Shown: positions 61,038 through 61,880 of the stretch, one piece after another
Layout of the letters: the number at the start of each line of letters is the position of its first letter
Position numbering within the stretch: position 1 is the stretch's first letter
Assembly: GCA_016841725.1 (NCBI GenBank)
Contig: JAENYP010000001.1
Location: forward strand, 310,001 to 374,000
DNA: 64,000 nucleotides
Source: Thermincola carboxydiphila
GTDB lineage: Bacteria > Bacillota > Thermincolia > Thermincolales > UBA2595
Direction of reading: 5' to 3'
Program-made: the position numbers and the translations under genes
The notes under the pieces: generated by a model
What the model saw: only the letters and a program-made list of their open reading frames with translations
Databases searched by the model: none
Told to the model about the DNA's origin: nothing

Positions 61038-61604
61038 TTAATGACTTCTCCCGGATACCGGGTGCTTACCAGGCGGTTTTCTTATCACCGGAGTATGTGG
61101 GATGTTCCTCACCCTTACATCGGCAATTAACGGATATTCCGACCACTCATCAAGTGGGGTCATCTTAATGGAATACATTCCATCATCCATTGGCTCCCCA
61201 TTATTATCTTTACCGTCCCAGGTGTAATGGTTAGTTATATCTCTTGACTCCTGCCCGGCCATTTTACTTTCCGGGCTCGTATAGTCCCCCCGGTAGAAGG
61301 CTTCATCATCCAGGGTTTTGATAACCTGTCCGCCCTTCAGCAGGTCGATACGGACATTGTGGTCATAGTCAAACCTGAAGGTCAGAGTGCTGGTCTCATC
61401 GTGATTAGGATCAAATACAGTCGGGCTGAAAGAACCATCTCCCGGATCAGCATATGCCGGCTGGGTGCTGTTAACCCGGGCTGTTGCATTAAGCCCCGCC
61501 AGTATGCCGTTGACAATACCGTCCAGAGCCCCCATATTCAGGGCAATCGCCAGCGCCACGGCCAAGACCTTAATCCACCATTGCTTTCCAATGATTTTCC
61601 GCAT
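61038..61604 (-). CDS. N-terminal part of the RHS protein: signal peptide plus FlgD-like Ig domain (frameshifted from 58550..61003)
   Basis: FRFDYDHNVRIDLLKGGQVIKTLDDEAFYRGDY...YTWDGKDNNGEPMDDGMYSIKM; a one-base shift near 61085 would join it to NRLVSTRYPGEVIKYQYDEQGNLTVMEE. Confidence 0.75.
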   Translation of the reverse strand: MRKIIGKQWWIKVLAVALAIALNMGALDGIVNGILAGLNATARVNSTQPAYADPGDGSFSPTVFDPNHDETSTLTFRFDYDHNVRIDLLKGGQVIKTLDDEAFYRGDYTSPESKMAGQESRDITNHYTWDGKDNNGEPMDDGMYSIKMTPLDEWSEYPLIADVRVRNIPHTPVIRKPPGKHPVSGRSH

Positions 61605-61628
61605 TTACCATTCCTCCTTTGTAGACAT

Positions 61629-61674
61629 TAAAAAGGCGCGCATCTTTCAGTTCCCGATACGCGCGCCTTTTTAT
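61629..61674 (-). terminator. Strong terminator between riboswitch and RHS start (likely expression platform)
   Basis: AAAAAGGCGCGCGTATCGGGAACTGAAAGATGCGCGCCTTTTT on the minus strand. Confidence 0.8.
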
Positions 61675-61790
61675 ACTTCATTCCTTAGCCTTTTCCACAA
61701 ATGTGGAAAAGATATACTTTTCTGAAGTACAAAAAACACCTACCCGATAAGATAGATGTCCTTTAGTGTAAGGTAATATTTCAAATTCTG

Positions 61791-61880
61791 CTTCGGCAGC
61801 CCGGCTGTCGTGGCAGGGGTAACCCCCACCCTTAGACCCGTGGCTTTGCGCCCCCGCCTTTCAACGGGTTTGCCTTTTTC
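61791..61880 (-). ncRNA. Cyclic-di-GMP-I (GEMM-I) riboswitch
   Basis: Minus strand AAAGGCAAACCCGTTGAAAGGCGGGGGCGCAAAGCCACGGGTCTAAGGGTGGGGGTTACCCCTGCCACGACAGCCGGGCTGCCGAA fits the GEMM-I consensus (GCAAACC..GAAA..GG.CGCAAAGCC..GGxCTAA..AGCCGGG.TxCCG). Confidence 0.9.

Follow-up and report, generated by a model that had tools for sequence, protein, structure and literature searches.

The window (the whole 64-kb stretch of DNA analysed here) holds on its minus strand an RHS gene whose leader we read, with a probability of roughly 0.6, as a canonical class-I c-di-GMP riboswitch that ancestrally controlled transcription into a secreted gene of the polymorphic-toxin type, acting as an OFF switch in the manner of Cd1, and that is decaying in this copy. 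By sequence, the reading is carried by an aptamer with a canonical pocket, a conserved terminator adjacent to it and a constant placement before one RHS subfamily. The features are listed below from upstream to downstream.

62098-62132 (-): terminator-like hairpin 3' of the upstream HdrB-like gene (62150-63016), 14 pairs followed by a T run (consensus match only)
61892-61884 pairing with 61788-61780 (-): extended P1 helix (fold)
61791-61883 (-): c-di-GMP-I (GEMM-I) aptamer (Rfam covariance models RF01051 and RF03167)
61731-61764 (-): terminator 1, fold -14.0 kcal/mol, z -5.3, conserved in relatives
61690-61711 (-): small palindromic hairpin TTTTCCACATTTGTGGAAAA between both terminators (sequence and fold), seen only in the window copy
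61629-61673 (-): terminator 2, GC-rich hairpin, -25.2 kcal/mol, z -6.7, seen only in the window copy
61613-61618 (-): ribosome-binding site AGGAGG (sequence)
61038-61604 (-): N-terminal RHS stub of 188 aa with hydrophobic leader and FlgD_ig (ORF, domain search, homologue match)
58550-61003 (-): rest of the RHS gene in another frame, 817 aa, with YD repeats, Rhs_assc_core and C-terminal tip (ORF, domain search)
57940-58536 (-): membrane-anchored PepSY protein, candidate immunity gene (domain search; immunity from position alone)
56681-57856 (-): another truncated copy of the RHS core (96% identity), which carries a short tip of a different kind and forms an orphan tip module (sequence comparison)

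Aptamer and leader architecture

The Rfam scan of the 64 kb gave a single RNA family match, at 61883-61791 (-), where RF01051 (c-di-GMP-I) reaches 80.1 bits against a curated cut-off of 35 and RF03167 (c-di-GMP-I-GGC) 77 bits against a cut-off of 59 (E 1.5e-16). An earlier note on this DNA had placed a GEMM-I aptamer at 61880-61791 (-) and proposed a search with RF01051 as a check; the scan bears this out, with coordinates that were right within 3 bases. Folded by itself the aptamer stretch is not unusually stable (z -1.4), so that its support rests on the covariance model. The extended P1 is also present in the folds of most sister leaders, and the hairpin at 62098-62132 (-) separates the HdrB-like gene from the RHS leader.

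Terminator 1, with UCGG at 61747-61744 and its U run at 61736-61731, is likely the functional terminator of the riboswitch. In an alignment of the RHS leaders of the relatives, the aptamer is followed after a short linker by a hairpin (GCACCUAUC-loop-GGGUAGGUG) and a U run, with the ribosome-binding site coming soon afterwards in the leaders of G002, G003, G004, G007 and G009; sites of the GGAGG or GGGGG type precede the start codon. Over eight distinct leaders, eight pairs of terminator 1 are kept in 97% of the cells, and in three of the eight leaders a double change from A-U to G-C preserves the pairing. The covariation score of the whole structure was higher than in all 500 shuffles and all slid versions, the relatedness of the sequences being a caveat to this comparison.

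The earlier note had overlooked this hairpin, which is better placed than the one that it proposed, a GC-rich terminator at 61674-61629. The latter hairpin does exist (our terminator 2, at 61673-61629) and none of 200 shuffles was equally stable, but it is not the conserved one: it was not found in the sister leaders that we compared, and we rejected it as the switch on this ground. It sits between terminator 1 and the ribosome-binding site. The leaders at C19, C23 and C34 (L048, L049 and L051) have in this same interval an inserted element with inverted-repeat arms, flanked in C19 and C23 by GTGTCTG-like direct repeats. From these arms and flanks, and from a relative of the element at C37 (L053 3164-3576), the insertion looks like a MITE.

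The RHS gene of the window

The RHS gene of the window is broken: the alignments mark the internal loss of ca. 1,000 codons with an out-of-frame junction; a draft-assembly error among the repeats is a possible source of the break. An intact 1,995-aa homologue in G004, whose own leader bears the same riboswitch, is matched over residues 1-179 by the 188-aa ORF and over residues 1183-1763 by the 817-aa ORF. Some 1,000 residues are thus gone between 61038 and 61003, covering the DUF6531 region and many of the YD repeats present in the G004 homologue, and the two frames do not join; no ribosome-binding site is evident in the sequence ahead of the ATG of the 817-aa ORF. YD repeats and Rhs_assc_core are found in the window. 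A single frame running from secretion signal to tip is absent from it and present in C23, C34, G002, G003, G004:C96 and G009. The secreted RHS N-terminus that had been noted at 61604 therefore stands as regards its start and hydrophobic leader, but the 188-aa ORF is no RHS protein alone and the repeats resume at 61003. Likewise, of the riboswitch-controlled RHS effector proposed at the same time, the GEMM-I aptamer and the terminators are indeed in an RHS leader, but a working c-di-GMP-gated effector at this locus is unlikely because the gene is broken. The gating of secretion or display by c-di-GMP, put forward with it, is an inference.

There is about an even chance that the window riboswitch is by now a relic that regulates nothing useful, with terminator 2 stopping transcription regardless of the ligand. 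Besides the broken gene, the stronger of the two hairpins is placed downstream of terminator 1 and ahead of the start codon and, by analogy with Bc1, where the second of two terminators hides the effect of the ligand (PMC11218506), could mask the response to c-di-GMP in the window leader; a duplex of the P1 strand with the terminator, seen in C23 and C34, has also been lost here. On the other hand, little decay is visible in the leader itself, which has kept its pocket and terminator 1 intact, as well as its ribosome-binding site and start codon. A relic would in any case be limited to the window copy and is compatible with our explanation for the family. Since the gene is broken and terminator 2 may mask the response, the best explanation is that the window holds a regulon member in decay, the intact ones being found elsewhere in the same genome and in its relatives.

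The C-terminal tip of the window copy has a weak likeness to goose-type lysozyme (lysozyme g) and to MltB (E 0.045 and 0.19), and that of C23 is a VanY/peptidase M15 domain; peptidoglycan may be the target of these tips. The PepSY protein would, from its position, provide immunity to the RHS tip. An RHS core with a variable tip, the PepSY neighbour and the second core copy are, as far as sequence goes, the anatomy of a polymorphic toxin array. A candidate c-di-GMP phosphodiesterase is encoded just downstream of this array, at 54223-55299 (-): an HD_5 protein in which HHERLDGSGYP forms an HD-GYP-like motif. A similar HD-GYP-like protein follows a GEMM-I aptamer at C25:249161. There are 16 GGDEF matches in the 3.9 Mb of the source genome.

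Direction of the switch

In the window the aptamer, the extended P1 and terminator 1 fold together, and likewise in most leaders; P1 ends at 61780 and terminator 1 begins at 61764 or later. A terminator compatible with the folded aptamer is what characterizes Cd1, an OFF switch in which the two can form side by side and have a competitor in an antiterminator built with the pocket strand (PMC9262584). In C. difficile, every one of the seven functional switches of class I is OFF (PMC6366702). The UCGG at the terminator loop, found in 11 of the 11 leaders compared, is the complement of the conserved CCGA in the pocket strand, and the base beside CCGA varies (G, U and A in G009, G097:C51 and G097:C79) together with its loop partner (C, A and U). 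Set against shuffles, the energy of the duplex between pocket strand and loop reached P 0.02 in one G097 leader and 0.07 in the other. In the rest P was about 0.3 or higher, including 0.31 for the window, whose antiterminator duplex is no better than its shuffles. We also considered an antiterminator formed by the 3' strand of P1 with the 5' arm and loop of the terminator, which is fair in C23 and C34 (GAGAUA/UAUCUU), does not exceed shuffles and is missing from the window; it was discarded.

OFF at high c-di-GMP is likely, as the best fit of this architecture, and is not put more firmly because the energy test against shuffles is weak; the earlier note made no statement on direction. At high c-di-GMP the aptamer would form and the pocket strand (CUGCCGA) would be occupied, terminator 1 would fold and transcription of the RHS gene would stop. 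At low c-di-GMP the pocket strand would instead be able to base-pair with UCGG of the terminator loop, the terminator would be blocked and the RHS protein made. In the window copy any such response may be hidden by terminator 2, itself strong and placed ahead of the start codon.

The opposite sign, with c-di-GMP turning the RHS gene ON and the protein made in sessile cells as a biofilm weapon or adhesin, is in our judgement unlikely. It has precedents in B. thuringiensis Bc2, a class-I switch that lies ahead of an adhesin gene and is ON (PMC6366702), and in the related Bc1, whose terminator T1 unfolds with c-di-GMP (PMC11218506), and a role for RHS in the sessile state would be biologically plausible. 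However, ON switches such as pilM have an aptamer and a terminator that are mutually exclusive (PMC9262584), and those of the window fold together.

Distribution in the genome and its relatives

The source genome has five loci of this RHS subfamily (C19, C23, C25, which is the window, C33 and C34) and all five have a GEMM-I aptamer upstream on the same strand. By our own arithmetic (20 aptamers in 3.88 Mb), the chance of finding one on the same strand within 600 bases upstream is ca. 0.15% per gene. Intact copies are found at C23 (2,486 aa) and C34 (2,437 aa), and the copy of C33 has lost its 5' end by a deletion that makes the riboswitch leader run into the RHS coding region (L050 2190-2430), with removal of the start codon and signal sequence. 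The leaders of these five loci are near-identical paralogues and the loci are therefore not independent.

Searches with the N-terminus followed by Rfam scans gathered eight more loci from six relatives (G002:C2, G003:C39, G004:C29, G004:C96, G007:C60, G009:C4, G097:C51 and G097:C79). A survey of other genomes had been suggested before, and the link proves systematic: GEMM-I lies just upstream in 13 of the 13 subfamily loci, from seven genomes, six genera and three families. In the same genomes, five RHS-type genes that begin with a different N-terminus (G001:C31, G002:C3, G002:C10, G003:C24 and G009:C12) had no GEMM-I in the upstream DNA examined, which for G001:C31 was only 349 bases, and Rfam scans gave none at distant homologues in other Bacillota and Streptomyces. 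The number of GEMM-I aptamers per genome is 20 in the source and between 10 and 21 in relatives of the same family and order.

The near identity of the leaders within the source genome would also be seen if the leader had simply travelled with the RHS gene through duplication and transfer, in which case its presence would say nothing about regulation. We consider this improbable, since over the distance to G009 and G097, where the identity of the RHS N-termini falls to 55% and 37%, a functionless leader should have decayed, and the leaders of these two genomes, although they differ widely in linker, loop and P3, have kept the pocket, the terminator and the UCGG.

In another genome (G177, L121 2391-2472 (-)) a secreted protein with an N-terminus like that of the RHS subfamily is preceded by a class-II c-di-GMP riboswitch (70.7 bits) and its terminator, on a contig that ends before any RHS repeat. 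This riboswitch was set aside as support, the 794 aa visible downstream being without an RHS domain.

Ligand of the aptamer

Vc2 is the structural type of the c-di-GMP-I (GEMM-I) riboswitch (RF01051), and we take the numbering register of the window aptamer to be that of the Vc2 sequence. In this register the equivalents of G20, A47 and C92 fall at 61874, 61847 and 61796 (segments AAGGCAAACC, GGCGCAAAGCC and GCUGCCGAAG), with G, A and C retained; these are contacts of Vc2 to c-di-GMP (PMC4744006). In the RF03167 alignment the CGCGAA of the GGC model faces CGCAAA in the window, so that A47 is retained; the window has G at position 20. That G in place of A47 is what would define the GGC variant is our reading of the model consensus and name; on the retained A47 we rejected the ligand of this variant. 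With A47 kept and G at position 20, a canonical pocket, the ligand is most likely c-di-GMP despite the GGC label of Rfam. Another ligand, be it that of the GGC variant or 3',3'-cGAMP, is very improbable: RF03167 does come ahead of the other models in order of E-value and GEMM-I variants of different specificity exist (PMC7266159), but A47 and the G at position 20 speak against it, as do the 80.1 bits of RF01051.

All 20 GEMM-I matches of the source genome have A47, and one of them (C11:87003-87088; L019 1501-1586) has A at position 20. An A at this position of GEMM-I marks cGAMP-sensing variants. The aptamer lies ca. 800 bases ahead of a canonical GEMM-I that heads a Flp-pilin-like gene.

Comparison with known systems

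The window aptamer resembles RF01051 and Vc2 in its score far above the cut-off, its pocket nucleotides and the layout of P1, P2 and P3, and differs in its target, an RHS gene of polymorphic-toxin type, a pairing not found in the literature searched. With Cd1, a class-I OFF switch before flgB in C. difficile, it shares an aptamer and a terminator that can coexist and a pocket strand complementary to a stretch at the terminator loop; the switching strands are not homologous, and the leader heads RHS rather than flagella. Bc1 of the Bacillus cereus group, with its dual terminator, has likewise a long leader in which two terminators come after a class-I aptamer; its downstream gene, spacing and sequences are different, and the second terminator is here peculiar to the window copy. 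As for the RHS/YD-repeat toxins of the WapA type in Gram-positives, the intact homologues have the same hydrophobic leader, DUF6531, YD repeats and Rhs_assc_core, together with a variable tip, a following immunity-like gene and orphan tip modules. Unlike them, they have a leader riboswitch and a distinct conserved N-terminus (LAVVLALALNLGALDG), and the window copy is broken.

GEMM-I riboswitches are known ahead of motility, pilus, adhesin and enzyme genes. In the library of papers searched we found none linking c-di-GMP riboswitches with RHS genes. The parts are thus of known kinds and the new element is the pairing of riboswitch and RHS.

Implications

From the same sensor heading every subfamily member found in the relatives, it follows that these bacteria probably tie the RHS gene to the choice between a motile and a sessile lifestyle. 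We lean slightly towards a broader statement, that a secreted RHS subfamily of this anaerobic lineage of Bacillota forms a dedicated c-di-GMP riboswitch regulon, in which contact weapons would be transcribed in only one c-di-GMP state by way of a conserved aptamer, terminator and antiterminator, a design that would have persisted in several genera and families as loops, P3 and toxin tips changed. The 13 leaders, which vary naturally in the strands proposed to switch, are a directly testable set. If true, a conserved pairing of GEMM-I with genes of the polymorphic-toxin type would tie interbacterial antagonism to the motile or sessile decision at the level of RNA.
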